Source: Climacium dendroides (taxonomy: Eukaryota > Streptophyta > Bryopsida > Hypnales > Climaciaceae). From it: a DNA stretch of 64,000 bases. The notes beneath the pieces are model-generated. The model was not told where the DNA came from. It worked only from the letters and a program-made list of their open reading frames with translations, and searched no databases. The DNA lies in the NCBI GenBank assembly GCA_950106755.1, contig OX467082.1, positions 22,444,001-22,508,000 on the forward strand, in the 5' to 3' direction. A program made the position numbers and the translations under genes. Below, one piece after another: positions 7,027 to 64,000 of this stretch (within the stretch, counting starts at the first letter, position 1; the number at the start of each line of letters is the position of its first letter).

Positions 7027-7031
7027 ATTAT
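7027..7031. repeat. Target-site duplication ATTAT (left)
   Basis: ATTAT lies immediately before the TGT of the 5' LTR and recurs immediately after the ACA of the 3' LTR (20938-20942). A perfect 5-bp duplication is the expected Ty3/gypsy integration footprint and fixes both element ends. Confidence 0.95.
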
Positions 7032-7127
7032 TGTAGATAGGCTAGTAGGGTTAATTTGTTTGTTTGTTTTTGTACAAATCGGAGTGTAAATATGCAGTAA
7101 ATGACAAACAATTGGTTGATTTGGAGT

Positions 7128-7823
7128 CCTATTTGGCCGATTTTGTAGTGTTAAAGTGTGTTCGATTTGGATAGAATGGGTCATTAGGTGTGGTCTGATG
7201 TCCAAGTCGGAAGTTCAGTCGTGGTTGGTAAATGTTTGTAGTTGGTTGGTAGGTTGCTGTCCAATTAGGATGTTGTTTTGTGATGTCCGAGTTGGCAGGC
7301 CGAGATATGTGTGAGTCGCCAAATAGGAATGTCTGGTGATTTAGTTGAAGCTGTCGAGTCAGTTGGGGTGGTTGAGCTTCGTCTTCCCTAGCTCCTATTT
7401 GGGTTGGGTTCTGTCCATTTTTCCTCACCCATTGTTGAACGTTTCCAATGCGTGTCCTAGTCGGTTTTGGCTGTGTATTTGCTTTCCTGTGTTTGGGTGC
7501 GTGTAATTCCCAGTTGGAAGTGTGTCTATGTCAGTCAGAGTTGGTCGGAGTGTTTGTGTGTTTGAGTGTGTCCTAGTCGGGGATGTGTTTGTGCCAGTGT
7601 ATGGCGGTGTGGAAGTGTGCGGAGTTATGCAGGAATTCAATGAGGAATTTATCCAAGTCGGGGGTTGATTTGGAAGAGAAGAGTGGAATGCGAAATTTGT
7701 GAAAGTCTGTGTGTTAAAGAAATGAGATGCAGTGAATGCAAGAGGTTCCAAGTTGGTGCAAATAGCTAGATTAATTCTAAACTTGGAATAGTAGTTGTGC
7801 TGAGAAGATGAGATCCTATTCGG
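7128..7823. promoter_or_regulatory. U3 cluster of twelve CCNANTNGG motifs (5' LTR)
   Basis: Exact copies begin at 7128, 7202, 7261, 7287, 7319, 7394, 7456, 7509, 7572, 7653, 7748 and 7815, mostly 50-95 bases apart. Examples are CCAAGTCGG, CCGAGTTGG, CCTAGTCGG and CCAATTAGG. The pattern is its own reverse complement, so it reads as an inverted pair of CCNA half-sites around one free base. The cluster stops about 40 bp before the TATA box. Three further copies lie downstream at 8032, 8331 and 8597. A role as protein-binding sites controlling the element is inferred. Confidence 0.75.
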
Positions 7824-7864
7824 AAGTATTGTGTGATGATGTTTGATCAGGCAGCTTAGTGCAG

Positions 7865-7873
7865 TATATAAAA
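7865..7873 (+). promoter_or_regulatory. TATA box of the 5' LTR
   Basis: TATATAAAA in a GC-richer context, in the middle of the LTR, where plant LTR promoters lie. Transcription would be expected to start about 30 bases downstream, near 7900. The matching box in the 3' LTR is 20104-20112. Confidence 0.7.
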
Positions 7874-8366
7874 TGGAACTAGAGAATGAGAGTTAAATTG
7901 TAATGGTGATTTTGATCACCAATTCAGAATTATATGAATTACATTTTCAATCGAATTGGTGTTACCTATGTTGTATATTGGATGTATGGCTTGTGTATGT
8001 GTGTTTAAATGACTTATTTTATGTGATAAATCCTAATTGGAGTATTAGTGTCGTTGTAGTTATGGCGCCTTGGTGTTTTAATTGAGTATTTGTCGCGCTA
8101 ATTGGAGTGAATTGCCTGAGTGATTGTAAGAATTATTTCAAACCAATTTGTAATATGAGTATGATTCCCAGTCTGATTGTGAAGAAAGATCCTGTGGTTT
8201 CCAAAAGCGAAGACAAGAGCCAAGTTGCCCAAGATCAGCTCAAGTTGGAAGCTTAAAAGTCTAACCTGGCTGTACTTGGATTACAAACCAAAATTGGAAG
8301 TGCTGTACCTACCATCTGTTGTGCCGACTGCCGATTTGGAGATAAAAGGATTTTGCAGAAAAAAGA

Positions 8367-8372
8367 AATAAA
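8367..8372 (+). promoter_or_regulatory. Possible polyadenylation signal in the LTR
   Basis: AATAAA sits in an A-rich part of the LTR downstream of the TATA box, where the R region should be; the 3' LTR copy is 20606-20611. Other A-rich words are nearby, so the choice is tentative. Confidence 0.35.
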
Positions 8373-8701
8373 GAAATTAAAAAGAGATAAATAATATATG
8401 TAAAGGCAAAGGATGAAAGATAAAAGAATATAAAAGAAAGAAGTAAAAGATAAAGATTAAGAAACAATTTGGGAGATTCACTTAACCCTTGTGGCCTTTA
8501 AGAGTGGAGTGACAAATTTAGCAATTAGTATTATCGCGTAAGGATAGCAATTGCATGTGGTTAATGAATTTCTTTCTTAAGTCTTGGTTGCAATGACCTA
8601 TTGGGTACAAATTAGAATCAAATCCTGTTTAATAGTCTCCTTCGGAACGAACTATACTAGTTGGGTAATTCCGAATTAGGTTCCAACATCCTTCTACATT
8701 T

Positions 8702-8719
8702 TGGCGCCGCTGCCGGGGA
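8702..8719 (+). promoter_or_regulatory. Primer-binding site, tRNA-Asp type
   Basis: TGGCGCCGCTGCCGGGGA begins three bases after the 5' LTR. It matches the well-known plant Ty3/gypsy PBS complementary to the 3' end of tRNA-Asp, differing by one base (C for T at the ninth position). It primes minus-strand DNA synthesis. Confidence 0.88.
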
Positions 8720-8789
8720 GGCAAACTAATAGGTTAATATATCGTTTTGTTTTTCTTTCGTTAAGAAATTATAGATATGTTGCTTGGTA

Positions 8790-9026
8790 ATGAGCAATTT
8801 ATCTATAAATTCGGAAACTAGCAAAACTGCTAGAGACGAGAGAGTGAGGAAACGTGCCGCTGTTAAAAAGCGAAAATTTGATTCAAATTCAAGTGTAGAA
8901 AACGCCTCACCGAGTTGGAGGAGTTCTTATCAATTTGGAGAATTCTTCCAGTCAAGGCGGTTTGCTAGCCAAGTAGTGGAAAGTAATAACTTAATAGAAG
9001 AAGAACATGTAGAGGAGATAAACTAA
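8790..9026 (+). CDS. Gag leader fragment, separated from gag-pol by two in-frame stops
   Basis: An ATG at 8790 opens a 78-codon frame rich in Lys and Arg near its start (a basic RKRAAVKKRKFD patch), ending in TAA at 9024-9026. It lies in the same frame as gag-pol. The 36 codons that follow are open up to a second TAA at 9135-9137, after which the frame runs uninterrupted through gag and pol. The simplest reading is that this is the true N-terminus of Gag, cut off by two nonsense codons; a separate small leader protein is the alternative. One CCNANTNGG word (8910-8918) lies inside and encodes part of Pro-Ser-Trp. Confidence 0.55.
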   Translation: MSNLSINSETSKTARDERVRKRAAVKKRKFDSNSSVENASPSWRSSYQFGEFFQSRRFASQVVESNNLIEEEHVEEIN

Positions 9027-12000
9027 ATAGTATTAGAAAACCAACAAACAATTGGAGTTCAGGAGGGAGTCCCTGATCTTCATGGGTTAATTGATCCAAG
9101 TTGTTTTCCTAATATTCCCTCACCGGAAGGCTCGTAAATAGGGCAAAGTGAGCAGGAATATTTAGAATACAAATTGGAGAATGTTAATAGTAATCAACAT
9201 AGGAATAATGTTTCACCATTAGTAGATTCTCCGTTAGGTTCTTTTCAAGGTAGGACTAGCCCTATAGAATTGGTAAAAGAACAACCAAATTGGGTTGTAA
9301 GTCCCACTGGGAGTTTGGGAAGGAGGAAAGTGGAAATTACCATAGAATTACGTAATAAGGATGAATTAAAAACGATTGTTAAGAATTTAAATTTAGAATT
9401 TTTTTTTTATCCTTGTGATTCCTCCCAAGGGAGTGATTCATCCGAGGCTAGTATTGAAAATCAATTTGGAGAGGAAATAGTTACATTGGAAGCAATGGCA
9501 GCCCCTGCCCAAATTCCAGTTGTAATGCGACCTGGTGACAAAGCAGACCGGCCGTATTCGTTAGTACCATTTCCAAATTTTTACGGACGAATGGGAGATG
9601 ACCCTGATAGCCACGTTCATCAATTTTTGACATGTTGTAATTCTAACAATGCAAGAACCGAGGCTCATTTTTTGAGCATCTTCCCTAGTACATTGCATAG
9701 TCAAGCCAATAACTGGTTCCAAAGACAACTAGTGGGGCATTTTACAACTTGGGCTCAATTACGAGACGCATTTTTAGCCCATTTCCGTCCAGCGGCTTAT
9801 CAGGAAAAGCTATTTGAAAAATTAGCGGAATTGCATATGGCAAGTGGTGAGAGGATAGATAGTTATTATGGTAGATTAGAAGAAATAATGTTGAGATTAC
9901 CTAACCATGATTATCTCGATGCATATTTTTTGCGACAGTTTATAACCGGGTTGTATCCACCCAAGTTAAAAGCCTTCGTAAAAGAAATTAGTCCTGCTGA
10001 TTTGCTTGCAGCCTACAATAGAGCTAAGTTGTGGGAAGAAGTACATTTAGGTGAAACTTACATAGGTCCCAATTTAGTACAACCTAGCTATATTGACCAA
10101 GTAGGGGCAAAAAGAGAGGATGTGGGGGATAATAATTTTCCAATTTATACACAACCTACGTATGTCAATATGGTCCCAGTAGTGCCAAATCAAGTGGTTC
10201 CAGTTGTCCCGGTAGAACCAAACAGGGTGAACCAAATAGGAATGCTTCCGCAGCAAATTCAACCTGGAGTGAAAGAAGCCAATTCGGCAGTAGAAGCCCA
10301 GTTATTGGAAATAACAAAGCAATTGGGAAACCTACAAGTAAATATGGCCAAAACGTCAGAAAAGAAGGGTCGACCAAATAATGACCGCGCGCATATTTGG
10401 TGTACGAATTGTAGAGGACATGGGCATATGTTGCCTGATTGTCCATCCCCACCTAATCAATCCATAAAATGTCAATTTTGTGGTGGTAAGCATGAGACAG
10501 TGTCATGTAAAAACTTGCAGGCCAGTTTATTAAATCATGCTAATATTCAAAATAAAAATAGTCAAGTATACCAGGTGGATGCAAACCCAAACAATTTCCC
10601 CACTAATAATCAAAATTGGGGTAACAATGCAAATTGGAATAATAATAATAATAATAATATTCGGCAACAAAGACGAAATTTTAAGCCCAATTACAATAGA
10701 GGCCAAAATTATAATCCAAATTCAAATTATGTCAACCCAAATTTTAGCCCTAATAATTTTAATAATGGGGGATTTGTTAATAATCCTAATCAAGGGGTAG
10801 CTCAATTACCCACTAGTAATAACCAAGGTTGGGCACAAATGCCATTTGGTAATGTTAATCAGGGTCCACCAACTTATGGTGGACAAACACCAACCTGGGG
10901 GCAAAGGAAAGGAGTGATATGTTATCATTGCCGGCAACCAGGACATTACAAATCAGAGTGTCCTAATGCTAAAGCTAGTGAGCCTTATGTGCCTCTATGT
11001 GGAAATTGTGGTCAAAATGGCCATACAGCCACTGAATGCAATGGCCCACGTAAGAACGAGTCTCAAGAGGGTTATAATAATAAACATAGAGATAATAGTC
11101 CTAAAATAATTTTGGTCGAGGAAAATAATTCATCTCAACCTAATCAAGATCGTACCTCTTACCTTGTCCAAATAGAATGTAAAGATCAATTTAATGATTG
11201 GCTAAAAGATAAGGTCGTCCAAAAAGTGTCTACTAGGGGCCAAATTATTAAGGATAATCCCCAAGGAAATTTGGAAGTATTAAGAGATAAGGAAATTACT
11301 AGGAAAGAAGCTCAACAATTGTTGGAACGACAAAATCAAATAGGATTAAAAACCAATTCAGATTTAGCCTTACAACCACTTCCAGTAGTAATTCAAACGA
11401 ATGGGAATGGGAAGCAATTTACCCAGTTGGATACTAGTGAAGCTAGTATTGTCGTAAAACCGAATGGGAAAGCAGTCAAATTTGATCCTATAATCAATTC
11501 AGTGCCTTTAAAGTCTAATCAGCCAAATTGGATGGCTATGCCTCCAGTTAACCCAATTTCCGATTTGGTACAACCAGTTGGTCCGAAGGAGAGTGAACCT
11601 CTTGTTATACCACCAATTAGGATGGAGACAAATGGCACAGGAAAGTTGCATGCAACCAAATTGGATAATAGGGGTAAAGTTAAAAATCAAAACCAAATTG
11701 GTAAAATAATTAAATCACCTGTTAAAAGAAAGAAAGAGAGATTTAATCAAATTGGAATAATTGATGATGCTAATCAATATAGTGTCATGGATGACTTGGG
11801 AAAAGCCAAGGCTGATATATCCATTTGCCAATTATTGGGAATTGCCCCCAGTTGTAGGGCGGTTCTTAAATCCAAATTAGTGAGAAAAAGAAGTAGACAA
11901 GTCCTTGAGGTAGCATTAAGCCCTGATCCTGGTGCCCCTGTGATAGATGTAGAAATTGATGGCCTAATTGTTTTTGGTGTTCAAGTAGACGGTGGTTCCA

Positions 12001-14964
12001 GCGTCAACTTAATGAATTATGAAACTATGCTGGGACTACATTTAATTGGATTACAGGAAACTAAATTGGTTTTACGCATGGCAGACCAGAGTAGGGTGAA
12101 GCCCTTGGGTATATTATCAAAAATAAAAACAAAAATAGCCGGGTTAACATTTTTGATTGATTATATTGTTTTTCAACCAAATACACCTAATACATCTTAC
12201 CCAATCCTATTGGGTAGGCCATGGCTTTATCAAGCCAAGGTTAAAGATAATTGGGGTAAGGGAGTTATGAAAATTTTTCAAGGGAATAAGGCCGTAAACA
12301 TGACTATGTATTCTTCTAAATATTTGGGTGAAACTCAATGGAAATCGCCAGGAAATACAAGTGATTTTGGTTATGATTCTGAATTAGAAGAAATGTCCAC
12401 AAATAGGATTCATACCAAGATTACGGGTAATGAACAAAGGGGAATAGCCATAAAAAATTATAAAGAGATCGGCCCTGGTGAATATATCATTCCATGTGAA
12501 GACGATGATAATTCCGATAAGGCCATTCAAAATTGGTTGACTGATTCTTCGGTTAATGGTATTGAGTCCGATTGGGAGTTGAGTGATGATAAAGAAGATG
12601 AACATAGTAGTCAAGCATCAGATATGCCTATTCGGTCTTATGTGTCTAAAGGTCATTGTCAAACTGTAAATATAGGGCTAGAGAGTGAAGAAAAGAATAT
12701 ACAAATATCAAGTAAGTTAAGCCCTATGGAATTAAGTTATTGGATTAAATTTTTTCAAGAAAATTCTAAAACTTTTGCGTGGTCATATAAGGATTTAAGG
12801 GGTGTTTCCCCAAGTATTTGTGAGCACCATATTGATTTAGAGGATGGTGCCAAACCAATTAGGCAACGGCCCCATCGTTTAAATCCAAAGTATTCCCTAT
12901 TAGTGAAAGAGGAAATAGAAAAATTAATTAATATCGGGTTTATTTATCCGGCACCAAATAGTGAGTGGGTTAGCCCAATTGTAATTGTACCTAAAAAAGA
13001 TGGTCGAATTAGGATTTGTCAAGACTTTAGGAAATTAAATGCCGTGACGAAAAAGGATGGATTTCCCTTACCTTTTACTGATAGTATTCTTGATACCGTA
13101 GACGGACATGAATGCTACTCATTCATGGATGGGTTCTCCGGTTACAACCAAATACAAATTGCAAAAGAAGATCAATCTAAAACGGCCTTTGTTACCGATT
13201 TGGGAATTTATGCCAGTAAAGTTATGCTATTTGGTCTTTGTAATGGAGCAGCCACCTTTCAACGTGTGGCCACTTTAGCCTTCCAAGATTTTCTCCGAAA
13301 ATTTATGGAGATTTTCTTGGATGACTTTTGTGTGTTCGGAACCAAATCGGAACACCCTGCTCAATTAAAAAAATGTTTTGACAAGTGTTTTGAATATGGA
13401 ATTTCATTGAATGCGGCCAAGTGCCAATTTGTTGTACCTTACGGGAAATTGTTAGGTCATATAGTGAGTAAAAAAGGGATTAGTACCGATCCCGATAAGG
13501 TGGCTAAAATTTCTAAATTACCTATTCCTAATAGTATTACCCAAGTAAGGGGTTTCCTTGGCCATGTTAGTTATTATCGGCGTTTTATAGAAAATTATGC
13601 CCAAATTGCCCTACCCTTAACCACCTTGTTAAAAAAATTAGAGGTAGGCACTAATCCTATTTGGACACCTGAATGTGATGGAGCATTTTTGAAATTAAAA
13701 GAAAAGCTCGTCACAGCTCCGGTTTTAATATCACCAAATTGGGATGAGCCATTTCATGTTTATGTGGATGCTAGCAATGTAGCTATGGGGTGTATTTTGA
13801 GTCAAAAAGATAAATCTAATAAAGATCACCCTATATACTATGCTAGTCGGCAATTTATACCGGCAGAGAAAAATTATACCACCACTGAGCGTGAAGCTTT
13901 AGGTATGGTTTATGCGGTACAAAAATTCCGCCATTACCTACTTGGTTACAAATTTACCTTTTACGTAGACCATGATGCACTCAAATACGTCATCAATAAG
14001 CCACAATTAAGTGGTAGATTGGCTAGGTGGGTTTTGCTTTTACAGGAGTTTAATTTTGACATAGTGGTACGTCCTAGTAAGCAACACTCCAACGCTGATT
14101 TTTTATCTCGGCTTGAAAAATCTTCCAATTCAGATGAGTCACCACTTGAGGATGATATTCTTGATGCAAATCTTTTTGAAGTAGATATAATACATATGGA
14201 ATATGCTGATGTTCTTAATTATTTGTCCATGGGGTCATTTCCAAGGGATTACAGTTATAAACAAAAGCAAGCCCTTATCAAAAGAAGTAGTCCTTATACT
14301 TTGTTAGATAAAACCTTGTATAAATTGGGTCAGGATGGCATACTTAGGAGGTGTATATTTAAAAGTGAAATAAATGACATTCTCCAAGGTTGCCACTCGG
14401 ATTCGTGTGGTGGCCATTTTGCAGGCATTTCTACAGCACAAAAAGTGTTGTTGGCAGGATATTGGTGGCCATCATTATTTCGTGATGCCCACGAATTTGC
14501 CAGAAGATGCGATCCATGCCAAAGGATTGGTAAGCCCACCATTTCTATGGCTATGCCGTTGATACCCCTTATGGCATTAGCCCCATTTGAAAAATGGGGA
14601 ATTGATTTCGTAGGCCCCATTGCCCCAGCTACAAAGTATGGGCGAAAAAAATATATTTTAGTAGCAACTGATTATGCTACCAAGTGGGCGGAGGCAATGG
14701 CTACTCGTAATGACGATGCCAAAACGGTGGCACGTTTTTTATATGAAAACATAATTTCCCGCTTTGGATGTCCACGGGAATTAATTAGTGATCGGGGTAC
14801 ACATTTTTTAAATTCTACTATAGAGGAATTAACTAATAGATTTTTAATCAAGCATAGAAAAACCTCACCTTACCATCCCCGTGCCAATGGGCAAACTGAA
14901 AAAACGAATGGGATATTGTGCAAAATTTTAACGAAGACCATTAGTGGTGCTTCTACCAATTGGG
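8910..14964. repeat. Twenty CCNANTNGG motifs within gag-pol
   Basis: Exact copies begin at 8910, 9285, 10097, 10232, 10279, 11422, 11523, 11560, 11613, 11656, 11693, 12216, 12578, 12627, 12855, 13342, 13656, 13734, 13937 and 14956. Six lie within 280 bases (11422-11701), in the poorly constrained stretch between gag and protease. Only four lie in the 2.5 kb of RT-to-integrase sequence from 12900 to 15400. Many single-mismatch versions such as ACAAATTGG and TCAATTTGG accompany them. Confidence 0.8.
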
Positions 14965-15377
14965 ATGAAAAATTATGGAGTGCCTTGTGGGCGTATAGAA
15001 CCGCCTACAAGGGAACTACAGGATTTTCCCCATTCCAACTGGTATACGGCCAAGAGGCTATATTGCCTATTAAGTTTGAAATTCCTAGTCTACGGGTTGC
15101 CATAGAAAACAAATTGGGTGATGAAGAGAGTTTAAAGCTGCGATTAACCCAATTAGAAGCTTTAGATGAGAAGCGGAGAGAAGCCTATTTAAATACTTTA
15201 GCCACCCAAAATCGGAGAAAGTCATATTATGATTCTAAGTTACGTCCTAAAGAATTTAAAGTTGGCAATTTGGTTTTACTATATGATAGCCGGTTCTTTA
15301 AATTTCTGGGAAAACTTCAAATGCACTGGTTGGGTCCCTATGAAGTAGTTGATGTCAATCCTAATGGGTCATTGTAG
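9174..15377 (+). CDS. Gag-Pol polyprotein (gag, protease, RT, RNase H, integrase)
   Basis: A single frame of about 2,067 codons with no frameshift. The 9174 codon is TTG; the first ATG is 9495 (residue 108), so the true start is unclear. Visible domains, numbered from 9174: Gag core at about 125-300; zinc knuckles near 410 (CX2CX4HX4C), 433 (a shortened CX2CX3HX4C), 582 and 609; an Asn/Gln-rich spacer; aspartic protease around VDGGSS (about 939), with DGG in place of the usual DTG/DSG; RT at about 1210-1420 with the active site as FLDD (about 1381); RNase H from YVDAS (about 1528); integrase zinc finger (HSDSCGGH, then CDPC at about 1780) and the D-D-E core at WGIDF, SDRG and GQTEK (about 1810, 1872, 1907). 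TAG at 15375 cuts the normal C-terminus: the same frame continues to TAA at 15447-15449 with the typical LKPY ending. It makes the particle and copies and integrates the element. Confidence 0.96.
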   Translation: MENVNSNQHRNNVSPLVDSPLGSFQGRTSPIELVKEQPNWVVSPTGSLGRRKVEITIELRNKDELKTIVKNLNLEFFFYPCDSSQGSDSSEASIENQFGEEIVTLEAMAAPAQIPVVMRPGDKADRPYSLVPFPNFYGRMGDDPDSHVHQFLTCCNSNNARTEAHFLSIFPSTLHSQANNWFQRQLVGHFTTWAQLRDAFLAHFRPAAYQEKLFEKLAELHMASGERIDSYYGRLEEIMLRLPNHDYLDAYFLRQFITGLYPPKLKAFVKEISPADLLAAYNRAKLWEEVHLGETYIGPNLVQPSYIDQVGAKREDVGDNNFPIYTQPTYVNMVPVVPNQVVPVVPVEPNRVNQIGMLPQQIQPGVKEANSAVEAQLLEITKQLGNLQVNMAKTSEKKGRPNNDRAHIWCTNCRGHGHMLPDCPSPPNQSIKCQFCGGKHETVSCKNLQASLLNHANIQNKNSQVYQVDANPNNFPTNNQNWGNNANWNNNNNNNIRQQRRNFKPNYNRGQNYNPNSNYVNPNFSPNNFNNGGFVNNPNQGVAQLPTSNNQGWAQMPFGNVNQGPPTYGGQTPTWGQRKGVICYHCRQPGHYKSECPNAKASEPYVPLCGNCGQNGHTATECNGPRKNESQEGYNNKHRDNSPKIILVEENNSSQPNQDRTSYLVQIECKDQFNDWLKDKVVQKVSTRGQIIKDNPQGNLEVLRDKEITRKEAQQLLERQNQIGLKTNSDLALQPLPVVIQTNGNGKQFTQLDTSEASIVVKPNGKAVKFDPIINSVPLKSNQPNWMAMPPVNPISDLVQPVGPKESEPLVIPPIRMETNGTGKLHATKLDNRGKVKNQNQIGKIIKSPVKRKKERFNQIGIIDDANQYSVMDDLGKAKADISICQLLGIAPSCRAVLKSKLVRKRSRQVLEVALSPDPGAPVIDVEIDGLIVFGVQVDGGSSVNLMNYETMLGLHLIGLQETKLVLRMADQSRVKPLGILSKIKTKIAGLTFLIDYIVFQPNTPNTSYPILLGRPWLYQAKVKDNWGKGVMKIFQGNKAVNMTMYSSKYLGETQWKSPGNTSDFGYDSELEEMSTNRIHTKITGNEQRGIAIKNYKEIGPGEYIIPCEDDDNSDKAIQNWLTDSSVNGIESDWELSDDKEDEHSSQASDMPIRSYVSKGHCQTVNIGLESEEKNIQISSKLSPMELSYWIKFFQENSKTFAWSYKDLRGVSPSICEHHIDLEDGAKPIRQRPHRLNPKYSLLVKEEIEKLINIGFIYPAPNSEWVSPIVIVPKKDGRIRICQDFRKLNAVTKKDGFPLPFTDSILDTVDGHECYSFMDGFSGYNQIQIAKEDQSKTAFVTDLGIYASKVMLFGLCNGAATFQRVATLAFQDFLRKFMEIFLDDFCVFGTKSEHPAQLKKCFDKCFEYGISLNAAKCQFVVPYGKLLGHIVSKKGISTDPDKVAKISKLPIPNSITQVRGFLGHVSYYRRFIENYAQIALPLTTLLKKLEVGTNPIWTPECDGAFLKLKEKLVTAPVLISPNWDEPFHVYVDASNVAMGCILSQKDKSNKDHPIYYASRQFIPAEKNYTTTEREALGMVYAVQKFRHYLLGYKFTFYVDHDALKYVINKPQLSGRLARWVLLLQEFNFDIVVRPSKQHSNADFLSRLEKSSNSDESPLEDDILDANLFEVDIIHMEYADVLNYLSMGSFPRDYSYKQKQALIKRSSPYTLLDKTLYKLGQDGILRRCIFKSEINDILQGCHSDSCGGHFAGISTAQKVLLAGYWWPSLFRDAHEFARRCDPCQRIGKPTISMAMPLIPLMALAPFEKWGIDFVGPIAPATKYGRKKYILVATDYATKWAEAMATRNDDAKTVARFLYENIISRFGCPRELISDRGTHFLNSTIEELTNRFLIKHRKTSPYHPRANGQTEKTNGILCKILTKTISGASTNWDEKLWSALWAYRTAYKGTTGFSPFQLVYGQEAILPIKFEIPSLRVAIENKLGDEESLKLRLTQLEALDEKRREAYLNTLATQNRRKSYYDSKLRPKEFKVGNLVLLYDSRFFKFLGKLQMHWLGPYEVVDVNPNGSL

Positions 15378-15449
15378 TTAAAAGATTTTGAAGGAAATTT
15401 ACTTCCCACTAGGATAAATGGTTACCGGCTTAAGCCATATTTTGTATAA
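15378..15449 (+). pseudogene. Pol C-terminal tail beyond an in-frame TAG
   Basis: The 24 codons after TAG 15375-15377 keep the reading frame and end in the sequence RLKPYF, typical of the end of Ty3/gypsy Pol, before TAA at 15447. The TAG therefore interrupts Pol instead of ending it naturally. It may be read through, or the last residues may be dispensable. Confidence 0.7.
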
Positions 15450-15470
15450 TGCCGAGGCCGGCATTTTTAT

Positions 15471-15480
15471 TTGGGGGGGT
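15471..15480 (+). promoter_or_regulatory. Internal G7 polypurine-like tract after pol
   Basis: TTGGGGGGGT sits about 20 bases after the end of the pol frame. In compact Ty3/gypsy elements this is where the 3' polypurine tract and 3' LTR would begin. Here 3.8 kb of extra sequence follows. It could be a central PPT or a relic of a former 3' end. Confidence 0.45.
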
Positions 15481-16394
15481 AGTCATATTTATAGTTCCCT
15501 TAAACTAAGTGTTAGCTAAATAAAATAACATAAAATATTTATAGAACTATAGTTATAGTGATAGTAATCTTTAAAAAAAATAAAAAATAAAAAATAAAAA
15601 ATAAAAAAAACAAAAAAAACAAAAACAAAAACAACAGAAATTAAAAAATTAAAAAAAAATTAAAAAAAAATTTAAAAAAAATTTAAAAATTAAAATGATG
15701 AAGAAAAGATGGGAGGCTGCCAAATCGGAAAAGTAACAAGTGCCAAGCAGGCAATGGGGACCACTCACGATTTGGGGTATCAGTTCAAATCCGAATCATC
15801 ACTCAAGCCGCCAAATTCAGGATCCGAATCGGGGGCGATCAAGTGAACAAGAACCAAATTGGTTAGGAAGTTGCAAATTGGGACGGAGTTTTGCAATTAG
15901 GTTGCAAGAAGAGGAGGAGTTGTTGGTGTGAGAGAATTGTGTCCGATTAGGTTTTTGCCGCTGGTTTTGTTGCTGGTCTAGTTTCAAGTCGGGTCTCAGG
16001 AAAGTGGCTCGGCGCAGTCTGAGTGTGGTGAGCATTGCCAAGTCGGGAGAGTTTTGCTTTCTCTGTAAGCAGGGTGGTGTTTTGCCAAGTCGGTTGTGTC
16101 CGAGGTTGGTTTTTTTTTTTTGTGCAGTTGCATTGTGTCTGTCGTGTTCCAAATTGTCAAGAAAAAAAAAATAAGAAAAAAAAAATGTAGCCCTGCGTCG
16201 GGCAAGTCGCAATTTTGTGTTTTTGTGTTTTTGGTGATCCAATTTGGAGAGGGGTTTTGCCTGCTGGCTGGGACAAGCGAGAATTAGTGCCAATTTGTTG
16301 ATTGAAGCGGAGTTGCGCCGAGAGTCAGTGAGGTTTTCCATTCCAATTTGGAGCATTTGCAGAGAGAATTGTGAGTTTGTGCGTTGCAGGTACA
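15481..16394 (+). other. Noncoding spacer between pol and the 3' frame
   Basis: It begins with an A-rich block (about 15574-15690, mostly A with T and a few C) and then turns to GC-richer, motif-dense DNA. Exact CCNANTNGG words start at 15720, 15824, 15854, 15943, 16038, 16085, 16239 and 16343. TTGCAG at 16384-16389, six bases before the ATG at 16395, could be a splice acceptor for a subgenomic mRNA. No convincing protein is encoded; the minus-strand opening here is low-complexity. Confidence 0.6.
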
Positions 16395-18786
16395 ATGTCA
16401 GGCAAAGGCGAAGGAGAAATTGATACGATGGAGCAAGAAACCCAGTTGATGGAGCGCGAGACGTGTTTGGAGAAGAAACCAAGGTTGGGCGACGAACAGC
16501 AAGCGCCAATTGCATTGGCCAGTGAGGATTTTGCAGTTGAGGTCGTTGTTCAGGCGGAATTTCCAAGTTGTGCGGAGATCGAGCAAGCAAAACTCCAACA
16601 AGCCGAGTTGGGAGATTTTTACCGATTGAGCAAGAACTTAGGAGAGGGGGATCTCAACAAACTGGAAATCTTCACAATGTCGTATGTTATACCACAACGC
16701 CAAGGGATGGTGTGTGGCGAGCTAGTGGAATTGCATCCAAATAGGATTGCGGAGGTGTTTCATTTGCCAAATTCAGGTTTGTTTGTAAGAGCTGTCCAAG
16801 AGGAGAGCACGAATTCGGTTTTGGAGTGCTTGAGTGAAGCATATCCTAGTGGGCAGCCAGAGCGTGACGAGTGGGAGATGCAGATGATTAAACCTGATTG
16901 GCGTCCGTAGATCACATGGGTGATGGCTAATTTGTTATTGGAGCAGACGGAAGGTAGAATTTCTAAGGGAAATCTCCGAGTTGTGATGGCGGTGCGAGGA
17001 GGTCAGAAAATCAATTGGGCGTTGTTTCTTTCACGGAAGCTGCATTCTGTGGTGGTAAATTCCAAGAAGTCACCTGGAGAGGCTTTGAAGGCCGCCAAAT
17101 TCTTATCCTATTTGGTGGAGGAGAGTTGCAAACATCTCCAGGATAGGCTAACAGTACCGAAGGACGAAGTGGGGCAGTCAAGCCGAGTTGTGCCTCCACG
17201 GGCAGTTGGACAATTTAAGTCCTAGTTGGAGTTGGTGTTATCTAATTTGGATCAGTTTGATCCTGCAAGGACGGAGCAGTTAGCGAACCGAAACACCGAA
17301 TTGGAGATGCAAGTGGCTCAATTGAAGGCCGAGTTGGAGGCGGTCAAGGAGGAGCGAATGCAGTACGAGATTCAAGTGGCCATGGAGCAGCAAGACATGG
17401 TGGACCAGATCGGGGAGTTTCGTTTGAAAGCTGAGCGCTTTGCGCGAAAGGCTGCAGCTGAGTATGATGCCAAGTTGGAGCTAGAAAGACGAGTCAAGGA
17501 TATGGAACACGACATGGAGGAATGGAGTGCCAAATTGCAGAAGATTATTGCCAATTCGGAGTTTGAGGCTGAGGAAGAACTTGTTACTTTGAATCAGTCC
17601 GAGTTGGTGGGACTTGAGGCGGAAATGCAGCGGGTGGAGAAGTGGCGCCAAGATTTCGAAACTACCACGAGTAAGGGAAGTAAGGCAAAGCCCTGTCCAA
17701 GTCGGAAGCGCCAGCGAGTCTTGCATGTGGAAGATTTGGCAGCGTTGGCCTTGCAGATGCCACCAACTGCCAACTTGGAATTCGCATACGCCTGGGAGCG
17801 GGAGATGTTTTTTCTTCACACAGGGTTGAAGTTTTCTGAGACTTTGCCTAAAGCACGATTCAAAACGATTTGGAATCGGGCGGTGCAGTTGAAGAGTGAA
17901 AACTTGTTTGCAGAGATCATCACGAGAGGCGAGGTTGTCCCTAATGACAAATTGGCTGCGCTTGCGCTAATTGGAGATTTTGGAGCTAGGAGTTTACTTT
18001 TCTACTCCGAGTTGGAAGCTGTGTTAGCCCAGCGACGGAGAATGGCTGCAACCTATTCGAAGAAGAAGTGTTTCTATGTAGGATCCAAATGGGTGGATGG
18101 TATAGTTGGTGCTTTGGCAGTAGCAGGTGCACCTTTGTTGGCTGCGGACGCTGATTGGGTCAAGGCTATTGGGGAGCTAGATGAAGTGTTCAAGTCTTCG
18201 GATTGGATGCACGAGTTGGTGGCTAATGTCCAAGATCGGTGTTTACAAAGCAGTGTGGTGGACGTGCACCCTGCGACGTATGTGTTCAAGTTTGGGAGTG
18301 TTTGTTCGAGATTGGAGGTCAAGATGAAGGCGGGTGCTATGAAGAAAGTGCCAATTTGGGATGTTGCTGCGGAGTTGAGTTATATTCAGCCCCAAATTGG
18401 TGAGACTCTCAAGTTGCTCTCTGGTATGTCAGACACTTTGATCACTTGGAAGCTACCAGATTCTTCCGAGTCGAGGTTGCAGGATCGATTTTTGGGGTGT
18501 TATGAGAGCCTTTTTGACAAACCTTCAGATGTCCCTTTTCCTAATTGGAGTGCGGTCACTTGGCTGGGGCGTGACCACAGTGAGGTGCACAGAGCTCCAC
18601 TTGTGGCGTTAGACAAGTTGGATCATATGGAGCGGGCCTCTAGGGTGAGTAAGCCACCCAAGTCGGTTGTGTCTGACCCACGGTTCTGCCCTTGTCCAAG
18701 ATGTTACTTTTGGAGGAGAGATGCCTAGTTGGATTCGTTGTGGTATAACTGGCCAGTCATCCCGGGGAAGTTCACAACCTATTTGG
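15720..18786. repeat. 3' region array of 27 CCNANTNGG motifs
   Basis: Exact copies begin at 15720, 15824, 15854, 15943, 16038, 16085, 16239, 16343, 16603, 16737, 17107, 17221, 17296, 17329, 17470, 17551, 17599, 17697, 17771, 18007, 18085, 18351, 18392, 18540, 18658, 18724 and 18778. Inside the reading frame the word is read in all three phases, for example Pro-Asn-Trp, x-Lys-Leu-Glu and Gln-Ile-Gly. The DNA word, and not a peptide, is what is repeated. Flanking bases differ from copy to copy, so these are not tandem duplications. Confidence 0.85.
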
Positions 18787-19235
18787 AGTGCGTGGATTCT
18801 TATTCACAATTTTCCATGGAGCACAGGAGTCACAAAGATTCGGTTTGTTTTCGTGCTAGTGTCTTTGCAGCTGTCTTGGCGAGCTGGTGCAGGGAGTACC
18901 AATTTGTGGTGGATTACCGAGTGGGAGCCCGGCTTAGCACGGACATGGAAATATTTTCTAAGATTCACTATCATTCGGCTAAGCGGATGCGACTATTGGA
19001 GTTGATGTGCATCACGCAATTTCTTCCAGGAGCTCACAATGTGATGATTTCTGATGCCTGTGTGGAGGTGGGCACTTGCAGAGGTCCAGTTTTTCAGTTC
19101 TATGATAACCAGGTTTCAATTTGGGAGCAGCGAACTGAATTAGCCAAGCGGTTACAGGTGGAAGCTCAAGGTCTCAAATTGCGGCAGCTGACTCCTTTCA
19201 AGTGCGATGTAGATCGAAAATTGAAGTCCAAGTAG
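16395..19235 (+). CDS. 3' extra frame of the retrotransposon (coiled-coil, NLS-like), interrupted by three TAG codons
   Basis: From ATG 16395 one frame runs 946 codons to TAG 19233-19235, broken only by TAG at 16908 (codon 172), 17223 (codon 277) and 18726 (codon 778). Random sequence of this length should hold dozens of stops, so this is a maintained or recently maintained gene. The N-terminal part (codons about 90-270) loosely recalls the uncharacterised plant-transposon proteins found beside Athila/Tat pol genes. Codons about 292-390 form a strong coiled coil rich in Glu, Lys, Gln and Leu. A basic patch SRKRQR at about codons 436-441 looks like a nuclear localisation signal. A Cys cluster (CPCPRC) lies just before the third TAG. 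I see no transmembrane segment, so it is not an obvious envelope protein. Function unknown; an element-specific DNA-binding or anti-silencing role is a hypothesis. The 27 motif copies between 15720 and 18786 mostly fall inside it. Confidence 0.7.
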
Positions 19236-19239
19236 TTTG

Positions 19240-19270
19240 GCGGGGACGCAAACCTCTGAGTGTGGGGCTA
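19240..19270 (+). promoter_or_regulatory. Polypurine tract region before the 3' LTR
   Basis: The sequence GGCGGGGACGCAAAC, then GAGTGTGGGGCTA, leads directly into the 3' LTR. A G-rich GTGTGGGG just before the LTR is typical of plant Ty3/gypsy plus-strand priming sites, although here it is interrupted by T and followed by CTA. Confidence 0.6.
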
Positions 19271-20937
19271 TGTAGATAGGCTAGTAGGGTTAATTTGTTT
19301 GTTTGTTTTTGTACAAATCGGAGTGTAAATATGCAGTAAATGACAAACAATTGGTTGATTTGGAGTCCTATTTGGCCGATTTTGTAGTGTTAAAGTGTGT
19401 TCGATTTGGATAGAATGGGTCATTAGGTGTGGTCTGATGTCCAAGTCGGAAGTTCAGTCGTGGTTGGTAAATGTTTGTAGTTGGTTGGTAGGTTGCTGTC
19501 CAATTAGGATGTTGTTTTGTGATGTCCGAGTTGGCAGGCCGAGATATGTGTGAGTCGCCAAATAGGAATGTCTGGTGATTTAGTTGAAGCTGTCGAGTCA
19601 GTTGGGGTGGTTGAGCTTCGTCTTCCCTAGCTCCTATTTGGGTTGGGTTCTGTCCATTTTTCCTCACCCATTGTTGAACGTTTCCAATGCGTGTCCTAGT
19701 CGGTTTTGGCTGTGTATTTGCTTTCCTGTGTTTGGGTGCGTGTAATTCCCAGTTGGAAGTGTGTCTATGTCAGTCAGAGTTGGTCGGAGTGTTTGTGTGT
19801 TTGAGTGTGTCCTAGTCGGGGATGTGTTTGTGCCAGTGTATGGCGGTGTGGAAGTGTGCGGAGTTATGCAGGAATTCAATGAGGAATTTATCCAAGTCGG
19901 GGGTTGATTTGGAAGAGAAGAGTGGAATGCGAAATTTGTGAAAGTCTGTGTGTTAAAGAAATGAGATGCAGTGAATGCAAGAGGTTCCAAGTTGGTGCAA
20001 ATAGCTAGATTAATTCTAAACTTGGAATAGTAGTTGTGCTGAGAAGATGAGATCCTATTCGGAAGTATTGTGTGATGATGTTTGATCAGGCAGCTTAGTG
20101 CAGTATATAAAATGGAACTAGAGAATGAGAGTTAAATTGTAATGGTGATTTTGATCACCAATTCAGAATTATATGAATTACATTTTCAATCGAATTGGTG
20201 TTACCTATGTTGTATATTGGATGTATGGCTTGTGTATGTGTGTTTAAATGACTTATTTTATGTGATAAATCCTAATTGGAGTATTAGTGTCGTTGTAGTT
20301 ATGGCGCCTTGGTGTTTTAATTGAGTATTTGTCGCGCTAATTGGAGTGAATTGCCTGAGTGATTGTAAGAATTATTTCAAACCAATTTGTAATATGAGTA
20401 TGATTCCCAGTCTGATTGTGAAGAAAGATCCTGTGGTTTCCAAAAGCGAAGACAAGAGCCAAGTTGCCCAAGATCAGCTCAAGTTGGAAGCTTAAAAGTC
20501 TAACCTGGCTGTACTTGGATTACAAACCAAAATTGGAAGTGCTGTACCTACCATCTGTTGTGCCGACTGCCGATTTGGAGATAAAAGGATTTTGCAGAAA
20601 AAAGAAATAAAGAAATTAAAAAGAGATAAATAATATATGTAAAGGCAAAGGATGAAAGATAAAAGAATATAAAAGAAAGAAATAAAAGATAAAGATTAAG
20701 AAACAATTTGGGAGATTCACTTAACCCTTGTGGCCTTTAAGAGTGGAGTGACAAATTTAGCAATTAGTATTATCGCGTAAGGATAGCAATTGCATGTGGT
20801 TAATGAATTTCTTTCTTAAGTCTTGGTTGCAATGACCTATTGGGTACAAATTAGAATCAAATCCTGTTTAATAGTCTCCTTCGGAACGAACTATACTAGT
20901 TGGGTAATTCTGAATTAGGTTCCAACATCCTTCTACA
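19271..20937 (+). repeat. 3' LTR, 1,667 bp
   Basis: Identical in length and borders to the 5' LTR, with two transitions between them (20682 A for 8443 G; 20911 T for 8672 C). All 15 exact motif words are kept, with the U3 cluster at 19367-20062. TATA box at 20104-20112; possible AATAAA at 20606-20611, where the transcript would be polyadenylated. Confidence 0.97.
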
Positions 20938-20942
20938 ATTAT
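20938..20942. repeat. Target-site duplication ATTAT (right)
   Basis: ATTAT directly follows the terminal ACA of the 3' LTR and matches 7027-7031. Confidence 0.95.
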
Positions 20943-21779: not shown

Positions 21780-22900
21780 TATCATACTTATTTTTTAAAG
21801 TTGTTTGGAATGATCAATTTTTGAACTTAATGATCCATTTTGTCGTAAGTGCATTAAATATGTCTTTTGGATCAATGAGACCCAAACTGCCATTCTTCTT
21901 TCTTGTGCAATAGTCCTCCTATGCAACTTGAACACAACAATTATGGTCAATCCATGACCACTAAATTTTTTGTAGAGACCCCCTATTTTGCGAATTATTT
22001 TTAGTGACACTCTTCATATAAAGATAAAGAACCAAAGAATAGAAAGCAAAATCAAGTTTATGATTACAACCCTACCAACTAGTGAGAGACAGGATGTGAT
22101 CCATCAAACATGAAGGTATCAACATCATCCATATCCAAGTCCAATCCAAGGGGAGTTCCTAATAATTTTGAAAGTTGTTGTAGACCTGTCTATTGACAAT
22201 CAAAATTTTGCATCTATGATGGTAGGGGATTATCTACGAATTGGTAGGCTACATTCATTCTAAGACCTTTTGCTAAATAGAATATTTCTAACAATTGAAT
22301 AAGGCATTTCATATTTGCTTGTGTGCCTTTAATAGTGTAGTTTGTGTCATTTGCATATTGGATAATCAATTGATGTCTGACATCAAAGGGGAGTAAAATG
22401 CCCTCAATACTCCTTTGGCTCTGTGCTTTTCTATGAAGAGGAACAAATTCAATGAACATATTCGTGGCCAAAATCAATGCCTCTCCTATAAAGAAGAATG
22501 AGTATGGTGCCAATGGACACTCATGTCTTAGAACTCCCCTTGAGACTTTGAAGCAATCCATCTCAATCCCATTGATGCTTACAACCGCTTCAACTCCAAT
22601 GAACATAAGTGAATAAAGTGTGAAGAAACACCCAACGCTTCCATCACTTTCTACAAAAATGGGAAGTGCACAATATTGTAGGCTTTTGTAAAATCAAGTT
22701 TGAGTAGAATCATATTTTGTTTTGATTCTTTGACCCAAGATAATGGTCTCATGAGTAATCAATACATTATCCAAAATGTAACACACTGGAAGAATGGCGG
22801 TTTGATCCTCACTAATCATGTCCACAAGTAGTAGTTGGAGTCTCCTCTATAAGCCTTTGCTACTATTTTATATGCAACATATTTTCAAGTTTTCAAATCA
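21780..22900 (-). pseudogene. Decayed LINE (non-LTR) reverse transcriptase
   Basis: Read on the minus strand, fragments in several frames line up with plant L1-type reverse transcriptase in the right order. They are a stretch like SEDQTA...YILDNVLITHETI (about 22720-22860), then VSINGIE...FKVSRGVLRHECPLAPYSF (about 22480-22600), then QYANDT at about 22330 where the active site is normally QYADDT, and finally a C-terminal GLIDPKD-like block near 21840. Stops and frameshifts separate them and the second catalytic residue region is altered, so it is dead. The 130-codon open stretch 22214-22606 is the best-preserved piece. No poly(A) tail or target duplication was identified. Confidence 0.8.
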
Positions 22901-61008: not shown

Positions 61009-63624
61009 TCATACTAGTTTGTGCGATGAATCCGGCTGCTCTTGCTTTAGCCTGGAGGCACCAAAGCTAGATCCATGTAGGAAAGGTTCTCTACTTTGCG
61101 GTAAGGACCTTGGATCATTGAAACTGGGATGGGCAATAGAGGCCGCAAGACTGATAGCAGTGGCAGCCGCAGGAGGTCCCTGTTGTTCTCTGACCCCCGA
61201 TGCCCGGGGACCGAGTCCCACACTCATTCCTAACTCCACATCCCCAGAATCCCTGTCCCTGTTGTCTTCCGGAGCTTGCCCAAAGTTATGGTTCCCATAG
61301 CTAATTCCTTGGTCTTGCAAAGATTTAGCTGTTGGAGCGACTGGTGCAAGAGCCTGCATTGCCACTTCATGTCCAATATTACGAGCAGCAGGAACATCAT
61401 GATTATGCTTCCCTTCATAGGTAGTAATCACCGCTTTGGGGTCATTCGAGGCTCTCTCCACATGTTTCCGAACTGGGCAACCAAGATTTGTGCACTTGTA
61501 GTAGCTCCTACAAATCATAATACCACAAAACGTCAAGATGTCAAGACTTGATAGAGTTTACGATCTCCAATTCAGGTCCGTTAAATCACTTCTAAATAAA
61601 GAGTCTAACTTGGGCATTCTAAGACTGTTCACACCTTCCACATAAACAGAACGAAGCAAATGTGAGGAATACGAACATGCAAAAGCACACAATGACGAGC
61701 AATACTCTAGAGTACACTTGAAAGGTAGAAGCTCGACAATGCAATCTAGATCAGTTGTAATCAAAGACAAATCGTGTGATTTACTCAAATTGATAAGATC
61801 AAAAAATAATATGCAAACATATAATAAGACCTTCCCCAGGTGAGCATGACTCTGATATGAAAGTTAGCACTAGCGATACCAAAGTATCCACCACTGGAGT
61901 ACCTGCCTTGTGATTACCAGCAGTAGAGAACAAAGCATACCCTAAATTATTATAAAAAGCAAATAATGTGAGCACAGCACAAATTAACGTTAAATTGAGT
62001 CTCGAGAAAACAAAAACATTCAGACTGGGAGCTTACCGAGGATGAGGGTTCCCTTTCACCACTTTCTGACCATATTTGCGCCAGCGGTAACCATCGTCCA
62101 AAATATCAACATCACTTGTAGTTTGCACAACTACCCGAGGTTCCCGAATCATTCTTGGAGGCGGTATTGGATCCTTTGACTTCTTGTCTTTTTTCCTGAA
62201 CCCAAAAGAGAAGAAAAAAGAAAAAAGAAAAAAGTTGTAAATCACTAAGGCCAACCCCTCATATTTAGTGCCCGGATTGACCATAATTCCAAGTTAAACA
62301 GTAAGATCTGGGGAAGTGCAAGACAGAGTTAGGAACAGTTACCTGCGCTTGGAGTCAGGCTCATCGTCATCGCCATCCTCAGTCGACTGTTTGCTTCCAG
62401 TACCTCCCTCTTCATCGCTAGTCGACGGAGATGATGGATCAGCAGCAGATCCTGCACGCCCTTTCGCCAAATCTGAACCGTCACGCTCTGCATTTCCACC
62501 TTCATTTTTTACCAGAGAGGCAAATCCAGCTCCTGGAACAACTAATAAATAAAGGTTAAGTCGTCGTCCAAAAAAAACAAACATTCGTGTCGATGAACAG
62601 CCAAATAGTCAATTTAAACCTTAACTACTCAACTGAAAATAGAAAGACCACTTTGAAAACTTTTTGAAATAATAGTCCAATACAGTTACTTCAAAAAAAA
62701 CTACTACCGTAAAAAAAAAGCAGGACATGATTTCTCCATTCTATTGTTACATTCTGTTTTCTTCCTTGAAGCTTCCGAAATGTTATATTTTTAACTCCTG
62801 TAGATATAAGGCAGCCACTACTGGCCACTTAGAGGTTAAAGGATCTCAAGATAGAGAACTCTTCGCTTCAGGAGGAGACAGTAATCGCTTCTGAGAGACA
62901 GCGACACAGATACCCCATTGTCTAGAGACTTCAGAAGAGCTTCATCACAAAAGTTTCCGAGTGCATTGTGTCTAGGGACTTTAGTAGAGTTTCATTATAA
63001 AAGGCTGGGAGTCCATTGGGCACTACGCAAGAAGCTCACACAGCTTTGGGTTATGGAGATTCCTCACCTGAACTGTCGGATATGAGATGAGCTCCACTCA
63101 ACGACAACCGCCTAGTGGGTTGAGGCTTGGGGTGATTGTGATCACCCTTGTAAACAATCTCGGTCACCTGCCCATCATGTGAACGCTCTACTTTTTTCTT
63201 CATAGGACAGTTCACATGTGTGCACTTGTAGTAACTTCGAGGGAATTCGCTACCTTTAACTTGCTTCTGCCCATATTTTCGCCAATTGTAGCCGTCCTCC
63301 GATGGTCGATCCGCAAACGTCGGCACAGCAGGAGCCTGCTGGTCAGATCCTTGAGAACCCTGAGAAGCCGTCGGTTGTGGATCAGCAGCACCTGCTGTCT
63401 GCACAGGGGCGCGAGCTTGCAAGGGCTGAATATCGGAGAAATTCACAGGAACTGCAACTGGAGCTGCTTTGGAAGGAGGTTGCGATAAAAGGGGTGGAGC
63501 TGGGGGCAGAGCGGTTCCAGACGAGGCCGCAGGCTGCTGCTGCTGCGAAGCGGGGGCTTCGTTCAATTGAGAGAGAGTGTGCGTCTGATGATGGGACATC
63601 CCACCAAAGGCCGACTGCATTGAC
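61009..63624 (-). CDS. WRKY: Group I WRKY transcription factor (5' end probably outside the window)
   Basis: Four minus-strand exons join in frame: 63624-63068, 62541-62343, 62195-62037 and 61507-61009 (stop), encoding about 470 residues. Exon 1 holds the N-terminal WRKY domain (WRKYGQK, then a C-X4-C...H-X-H zinc finger ending GDHNH). Exons 3 and 4 hold the C-terminal domain (WRKYGQK, CTNLGC, GKHNH), split by an intron exactly after PHPR. That is the conserved plant R-type intron position of group I C-terminal domains. Two WRKY domains define group I, which bind W-box promoters (TTGAC core), often in defence and stress responses. A Gln-rich stretch precedes the first domain. The first in-frame ATG seen is at 63620, but TTGACCAG just before 63624 looks like a splice acceptor. 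The usual Ser-Pro-rich N-terminus of group I is absent, so upstream exon(s) probably lie beyond 64000. The exon 2 start could instead be a few codons downstream, after TTCCAG. Confidence 0.93.
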
Positions 63625-64000
63625 CTGGTCAAGTTAGTGACGACTAGAGTTGACGAATAACTGTCTCAATGTGGGAGTAGGCGAAACAAATCAGCAGTCG
63701 ACAACTTTCAACCCTCATCACCGCCAAACGAAAGAATACATATAAATGGTAAGAAAATAACCGTAATGACGTTCCCCACGACCAATTCCCCCTAGGGTTG
63801 AGAAATAAATTGCCAAGAAAGAATTTTTCATATTTTATCACATTCTTGCAGAATAAATATATACACTAGAAGCAAGTGACAGAAATCCAATCTTGACCAG
63901 TGGATGATGACAACAGGAAGGGATAATATTACATAACGATCTATCATTTGACATAAAAGACCGATTCAGAAATGTCAGTGCAAATCAGCTTACTGACCAT
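63625..64000 (-). other. Probable WRKY intron or 5' region
   Basis: AT-rich with no coding similarity. If the acceptor at 63625-63626 is used, this is intron; otherwise it is 5' UTR or promoter. Confidence 0.5.

Follow-up and report, generated by a model that had tools for sequence, protein, structure and literature searches.

The window analysed here is a stretch of 64,000 nucleotides from Climacium dendroides (assembly GCA_950106755.1, contig OX467082.1, positions 22,444,001 to 22,508,000 of the forward strand). Positions 7032-20937 hold a young Ty3/gypsy long terminal repeat (LTR) retrotransposon, with the features of the group present: two LTRs, a target duplication, gag, and reverse transcriptase (RT)-RNase H ahead of integrase (IN). 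Downstream of pol and ahead of the 3′ LTR it carries a third gene, ORF2, and its DNA is filled, coding parts included, with a short palindromic motif, CCNANTNGG. The motif is specific to a family of elements and changes with the third gene, a feature that goes beyond the first-pass annotation of the window. On balance, the reading favoured here is that ORF2 is a dimeric reader of the site of its own family, acting against silencing, with the site scattered by selection. The element and its parts are as follows (. = no strand).

7027..7031,.: left target-site duplication, ATTAT
7032..8698, +: 5′ LTR (TGTAGA...TCTACA), 15 motif copies, from blastn against the 3′ LTR
8699..8719, +: primer-binding-site-like stretch, TTTTGGCGCCGCTGCCGGGGA, read from the sequence
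9138..15377, +: ORF1 (gag, zinc knuckles, RT, RNase H, integrase; Ty3/gypsy), 24 motif copies
15448..16394, +: spacer between pol and ORF2, 8 motif copies, with an A-rich tract at 15571-15695
16395..19235, +: ORF2, the third gene, 21 motif copies
19271..20937, +: 3′ LTR, 15 motif copies, from blastn against the 5′ LTR
20938..20942,.: right target-site duplication, ATTAT
7128..20844,.: dispersed copies of CCNANTNGG, n = 85, the first at 7128-7136 and the last at 20836-20844

The LTRs are 1667 bp each and show 2 differences by blastn; their alignment and the ATTAT duplication on both sides bear out the bounds first given for the element. The stretch that follows the 5′ LTR presumably resembles a primer-binding site of the Athila/Tat type. 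ORF1 contains the Pfam domains Retrotrans_gag, zf-CCHC, RVT_1, RT_RNaseH, Integrase_H2C2 and rve. ORF2 consists of an N-terminal region with weak similarity to PF20167, a coiled coil and a conserved C-terminal region. The window copy is not fully coding. ORF1 stops with a TAG at 15375, the next in-frame stop lying 24 codons on at 15447, and the ORF2 frame, defined via homologs of the same genome with uninterrupted frames, is broken by TAG at 16908, 17223 and 18726. All four of these stops are thus TAG, and those at 17223 and 18726 fall within motif copies, CCTAGTTGG. Across the 1.5-kb ORF2 core of 30 loci the stops number 32 TAG, 19 TGA and 7 TAA, with only 2 of the 58 in or adjoining a motif. 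C-to-T decay at CAG would fit the TAG stops.

There are 85 exact copies of CCNANTNGG in the element. The first-pass annotation had counted 77, of which the 15 per LTR stand, while the 47 internal copies are in fact 55. For one LTR plus the internal region, 70 copies compare with 3.1 ± 1.8 expected from 500 dinucleotide shuffles (largest 10), and with 3.3 when shuffling was confined to 100-bp blocks (300 shuffles, largest 9). The saturation is therefore stronger than claimed, no shuffle reached the whole count, and chance or base composition is rejected as the source of the motif. In the approximately 50 kb outside the element, five copies (1366, 31371, 44328, 57801 and 63111) were found against 7.6 expected; only three had been listed before (1366, 31372, 57801), with the correct remark that the number is about chance. 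Among all words with six fixed letters and a span of at most 11, de novo discovery ranked CCNANTNGG first (z 37), and the other 39 top-listed gapped words were overlapping or relaxed forms of it. Relaxation is symmetric when it allows A/T at the outer position (ACNANTNGG 20, CCNANTNGT 20), other relaxations are asymmetric (GCNANTNGG 14, CCNANTNGC 3), and CCNANNTNGG is mildly enriched (16 vs 3.2).

The repeated unit had been taken to be DNA rather than protein, and codon-preserving shuffles (500 each) agree. ORF1 has 24 copies against 7.8 expected (largest 16), and two ORF2 pieces have 4 against 0.4 (largest 3) and 13 against 2.7 (largest 7); in the piece with the smallest count, 2 against 0.3, the shuffles also reached 2. 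Codon usage is rejected as the source for ORF1 and the larger ORF2 pieces. Tandem duplication, also discounted previously, is rejected by the lack of any tandem repeat overlying the sites in three stretches (the window element, L054 and L055); Tandem Repeats Finder reported A-rich tracts only in the window element. Helical phasing was looked for in the site spacings and none was seen. Density per kb is 15.0 in the first 800 bp of the LTR, 8.4 in the pol-ORF2 spacer, 7.4 in ORF2, 5.6 in the gag-protease linker, 3.9 in RT-RNase H, 3.8 in IN, 3.5 in the remaining LTR, 2.7 in gag and 2.3 in the leader. The statement that it is lowest in the RT-integrase core was thus inexact, the remaining LTR, gag and leader being lower.

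One genome was surveyed for related elements, and it contains at least 89 ORF2 matches. DNA was read at 44 of these 89 (30 + 6 + 8) and, after three upstream stretches, beside 8 of 58 pol matches (five extended), the loci being picked by choice from the match lists and not at random. The enrichment persists in all of the 30 loci L009-L038, one of which is the window's own, as the family-member check proposed for the motif would have it. Their ORF2s are 43-100% identical. In stretches that mostly span about 4.5 kb they hold 13-53 copies of CCNANTNGG, where shuffles give means of 0.6-1.3 and maxima of 2-5. In the whole genome (412.6 Mb) CCNANTNGG occurs 71360 times and its reversed control word 39497 times, an excess which may reflect such elements, here called class 1. 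Elements with more distant ORF2s yielded other motifs de novo.

Class 2, CCNATNGG: L039-L042, L047, L063; 24-48 copies vs 0.8-1.7 expected
Class 3, ACNANTNGT, usually flanked by G on the left and C on the right (GACNANTNGTC): L043, L048; 34 and 17 vs 1.3 and 0.6
Class 4, GNCNANTNGNC: L044, L059/L068, L061/L067; 42, 17 and 43 vs 0.3-0.7
Class 5, CNATNG type with A/T-rich flanks, often CTATAG: L045, L049-L052; core 52-72 vs 9.6-12.2

The core C-N-A / T-N-G is common to all classes. Class 2 loci keep CCNANTNGG as a minor form (6-14 copies), classes 3 and 4 partly overlap, and the CNATNG type is the weakest class. A class motif is present in 46 of the 51 loci read and absent in five. Four of the latter have an ORF2 and no detected class motif (L046/L056, L060, L058/L065 and L062/L066); the fifth, L057/L064, has no class motif and no ORF2 in the 7 kb after pol, which makes it the single candidate for a related element lacking both. 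The motif in the motif-less loci may have been lost, be very different, or never have been gained. L046 has an open stretch of 569 aa with a pol match alongside, and since it encodes an ORF2 homolog without the motif, the proposal that the motif is a by-product of coding for ORF2 is rejected.

The gag-pol DNA of the class-2 element is also motif-filled (L053, 28 vs 1.6), and 4 of 17 pol sites in the window are centred on the same position as a class-2 site (null: mean 0.2, at most 2). In the class-3 and the class-4 element the aligned pol has only 2 and 4 sites, most sites lying after pol. Codon shuffles matched the counts in small coding pieces of these two classes (L044: 3, largest 3; L048: 4, largest 4) and nearly did so in L043 of class 3 (7, largest 6), so the argument from coding DNA rests on classes 1 and 2.

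The geometry of the sites was scanned with the half-site CCNA in inverted, everted and direct arrangement at spacers of 0-8. In class 1 the inverted CCNA/TNGG pair at a 1 bp spacer was found 70 times against 3.2 expected, the runner-up being 2 bp with 16, and half-sites outside full sites were close to expectation (427 vs 401). The earlier view of a two-fold-symmetric, dimer-type site is thereby upheld. Class 2 favours a 0 bp spacer (107 vs 4.4), followed by 1 bp (31 vs 4.2), and classes 3 and 4 favour 1 bp (68 vs 3.3; 75 vs 1.2). Class 4 is also enriched in direct and everted pairs (31, 27 and 16 vs 1.4, 1.0 and 1.2) and has 276 lone half-sites against 220 expected. Direct repeats of the class 4 half-site at a distance of 3 bp (L044, L055) number 31 where 1.4 are expected, and the class 4 site may be wider, perhaps extending to TNGNCNANTNGNCNA. 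Sites bound by DNA-binding dimers typically combine two-fold symmetry with free bases. The enriched form, an inverted pair of half-sites at a fixed spacer, meets the needs of a dimeric DNA-binding protein, and binding by such a protein is predicted from the sequence.

For comparison between diverged copies, ORF2 DNA was aligned by codon, the expected number of kept sites being derived from the overall frequency with which six bases so arranged remain unchanged.

Window-L010: 76% nucleotide identity; sites kept 12/19 vs 3.9; free-base identity 0.81
Window-L014: 69%; 12/20 vs 2.2; 0.69
Window-L012: 68%; 15/21 vs 2.3; 0.67
Window-L021: 56%; 8/20 vs 0.8; 0.50
Window-L020: 56%; 7/18 vs 0.8; 0.67
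L014-L021: 57%; 12/21 vs 1.1; 0.53
L020-L021: 58%; 13/26 vs 1.4; 0.59

Within coding DNA there is thus constraint on the six fixed bases but none on the free ones: the kept sites exceed expectation, and the free bases at these sites drift at about the overall identity of each pair. Unshared sites turn over while the density of sites persists. Of the two outcomes proposed at first, conservation of positions or turnover, both were found, each for a part of the sites. This also supports DNA as the repeated unit, as do the related proteins that elsewhere go with a different motif. Near-identical pairs are uninformative (20/22 vs 18.7; 23/24 vs 20.1). The class 2 pair L039-L040, at 89%, keeps 21/25 sites against 14.2, and the pair L043-L044 of classes 3-4 keeps 4/14 of a 7-letter core against 1.5. 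No positional coincidence was found between ORF2 sites of different classes (0/18, 0/19).

The motif classes largely follow the ORF2 tree. In a tree of 23 rows, classes 1, 2 and 5 each lie on one side of a branch (100/100), as does class 3 (86/99), and the six labels need five changes, which is the minimum and was reached by 0 of 200 label shuffles; in this tree the long branches leading to classes 2 and 5 join. A tree of 18 chosen rows, with extra distant ones, needs six changes, and in it class 3, class 4 and the motif-less rows require two changes each. The independent switches of class are few, about five, because near-copies inflate the clustering. The pol proteins evolve at a different pace. 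At matched coordinates, 16 class-1 elements are 88-91% identical to the window's in pol and 43-47% in ORF2, which is the fast-diverging protein, while pol beside ORF2s of classes 2, 3 and 4 is 71, 67 and 68% identical to that of the window. The change of motif with ORF2 points to a protein in each family that recognises the DNA of that family, and ORF2 is probably the binder.

Relatives of ORF2 were sought in sequence and structure. The match to PF20167 in the N-terminal part has a best E of 1.6e-4, below the curated cut-off. In Pfam searches with 33 ORF2 pieces (the 25 most frequent of 46 families) and nine N-terminal pieces, the VANC domains DUF1985 and DUF287 were not among the matches listed, and PF20167 was weak. 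Profile searches gave no convincing relative of known structure and Foldseek no significant match to the ORF2 model; when the model was aligned structurally, its best partner was the VANC21-DNA crystal structure. One protein search found a single relative, P0001, among the 7996 candidates with the most shared words, and a second found none among candidates preselected in the same way. P0001, a metagenome protein (jgi source), is 79% identical to an ORF2 piece over 63% of the piece, and P0002 (ena source) is 88% identical to pol. Relatives beyond this genome seem to exist, judging by these two sequences. The fold prediction of P0001 from a 3-row alignment was unusable (pLDDT 37).

A protein-level trace of the class-1 motif was scored in P0001 (z 5.1) and P0002 (z 8.2) (60/121 proteins; baseline mean z 1.8), a test that is weak because the motif baseline is raised and the control motif reached 5.0. 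By the same weak test, P0014 of Tripterygium wilfordii, which bears PF20167, shows a trace of CCNANTNGG at z 7.1 and is a lead only. Named matches of the pol search include liverwort and seed-plant elements. No relative was confirmed in viral contigs or found in phages, and the seven plasmid records matched were all below 60% identity.

Proteins of the element other than ORF2 could in principle read the motif. Integrase, Gag or RT might, for example, use the sites to integrate into copies of the element itself or to form contacts in the intasome or capsid. Zinc knuckles and integrase, which bind nucleic acid, are both present; the genes of one element may also share one history, in which case the motif class could track pol as well. 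However, the aligned pol of a class-3 and a class-4 element is 85% identical while their motifs differ, pol changes little within class 1 where ORF2 diverges fast, and we know of no need of integrase for sites throughout a whole element. This explanation is considered unlikely. Equally unlikely is a host transcription factor or chromatin protein whose binding is exploited for expression. It would suit the peak of density, which falls within the initial 800 bp of the LTR, the usual promoter region, but at least four distinct motifs occur in related families of one genome, the sites run through coding DNA, and CCNANTNGG is at chance in the rest of the window.

A role in RNA, such as packaging, dimerisation, nuclear export or translation control, would agree with the position of the sites inside an element that should be transcribed over most or all of its length, and strand gives no verdict as the palindrome has the same letters on both strands. 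However, no covariation was found between the symmetric positions, so no RNA stem is implied and this form of the proposal is rejected. The inner free pair is, if anything, less complementary than expected (15/70 vs 22.6 and 78/239 vs 92.1; class 2: 24/77 vs 32.5), and the symmetry with free bases is of the DNA-dimer type noted above, which leaves an RNA role rather improbable. That the sites are the trace of host attack or mutational bias is most improbable: although stops, TAG being a frequent one, have accumulated in many decayed copies, such a bias would neither keep the six fixed bases at 56-76% nucleotide identity between families, with the free bases not kept, nor differ between related families.

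The reading of ORF2 as reader would work as follows. In this clade of Ty3/gypsy elements, the ORF2 protein would dimerise, perhaps over its coiled coil, and bind two inverted half-sites, each made of the C-N-A core with family-specific flanking bases, at a spacer of 0 or 1 bp. Selection would spread the site by point substitution across LTRs, spacer and genes, at a density that makes the element itself the preferred target. Bound ORF2 would mark copies of its own family, and with sites also within genes each copy would be targeted over its full length. The likeliest purpose, if VANC is a guide, would be to counter silencing of the own family, through loss of DNA methylation or repressive chromatin, with the rest of the genome spared. 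A change in ORF2 specificity would then give a new family with a new site. The anti-silencing role is put at about an even chance; a repressor or copy-counting role is possible instead.

Two further features of the window, read by eye, are on the - strand: frames resembling parts of a two-domain WRKY transcription factor gene at 61009-63665, and an open frame resembling a fragment of a non-LTR reverse transcriptase at 22214-22693.

Among known plant LTR retrotransposons, the Athila-type and other additional ORFs (aORFs) are comparable to ORF2 in being an extra sense-strand gene between pol and the 3′ LTR. PF20167 (Transposase_32) is described as related to Athila ORF1 (PMC11728184, PMC7264820), and the weak similarity of the ORF2 N-terminal part to this family is the link to the Athila type. 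The aORFs are discussed as env-like or of unknown function, and the available passages of these papers mention no matching motif in the DNA of the elements themselves (PMC11728184, PMC7264820). The TRP28 ORF of Retand is antisense and encodes a different protein, with tandem-repeat arrays in about half, and the abstract mentions no self-targeting motif (PMC11963269). In the part available, a 2026 paper on LTR retrotransposon methylation takes VANC as a model and asks whether proteins encoded by Tork or Athila modulate their epigenetic landscape (PMC12844716). A limited check of open-licence literature found no report of a comparable system in LTR retrotransposons; the single comparable self-activation system met there is that of the VANDAL DNA transposons.

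According to the passages available, VANC proteins of Arabidopsis bind motifs carried by the VANDAL family to which they belong, and clear silent marks from it (Hosaka et al. 2017, PMC5735166; Sasaki et al. 2023, PMC10398659). As far as these sources go, a VANDAL family has a short family-specific motif in number and an accessory protein, the two differing together between families. The same traits are present here: the dense short motif differs in sister families, and the accessory protein, whose type goes with the motif, outpaces the catalytic protein in divergence. However, VANDALs are Mutator-like DNA transposons, whereas the carriers here have LTRs, gag, RT and integrase. VANDAL motifs lie in noncoding tandem repeats, in contrast to the dispersed palindromes found here, many in coding DNA and with no tandem repeat in the three stretches analysed. 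The motifs of VANC21 (YAGTATTAY) and VANC6 (AGTTGTCC/AGTTGTAC) are unlike the inverted half-sites. As carrier, repeat structure and Pfam domains differ, the ORF2 system is not classed as a VANC system, although it may, by analogy, work like one.

A broader form of this comparison is judged to have roughly equal chances of being right or wrong. The elements would carry a family-specific DNA identity code with its own dimeric reader, their sequence, including coding parts, having been rewritten by selection until saturated with the palindrome of that reader. Switching of the spacer length or the flanks of a conserved C-N-A half-site would yield new families and block cross-activation between sisters, a retroelement counterpart of VANC without tandem repeats. 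The related families of one genome supply several pairs of protein and motif, and the pattern of fixed and free bases within their coding DNA is a strict signature. This makes it possible to test directly how specific the binding is, how that specificity evolves and what it does to silencing, and the pairs would also provide a natural set of DNA-binding proteins with related but distinct palindromes.

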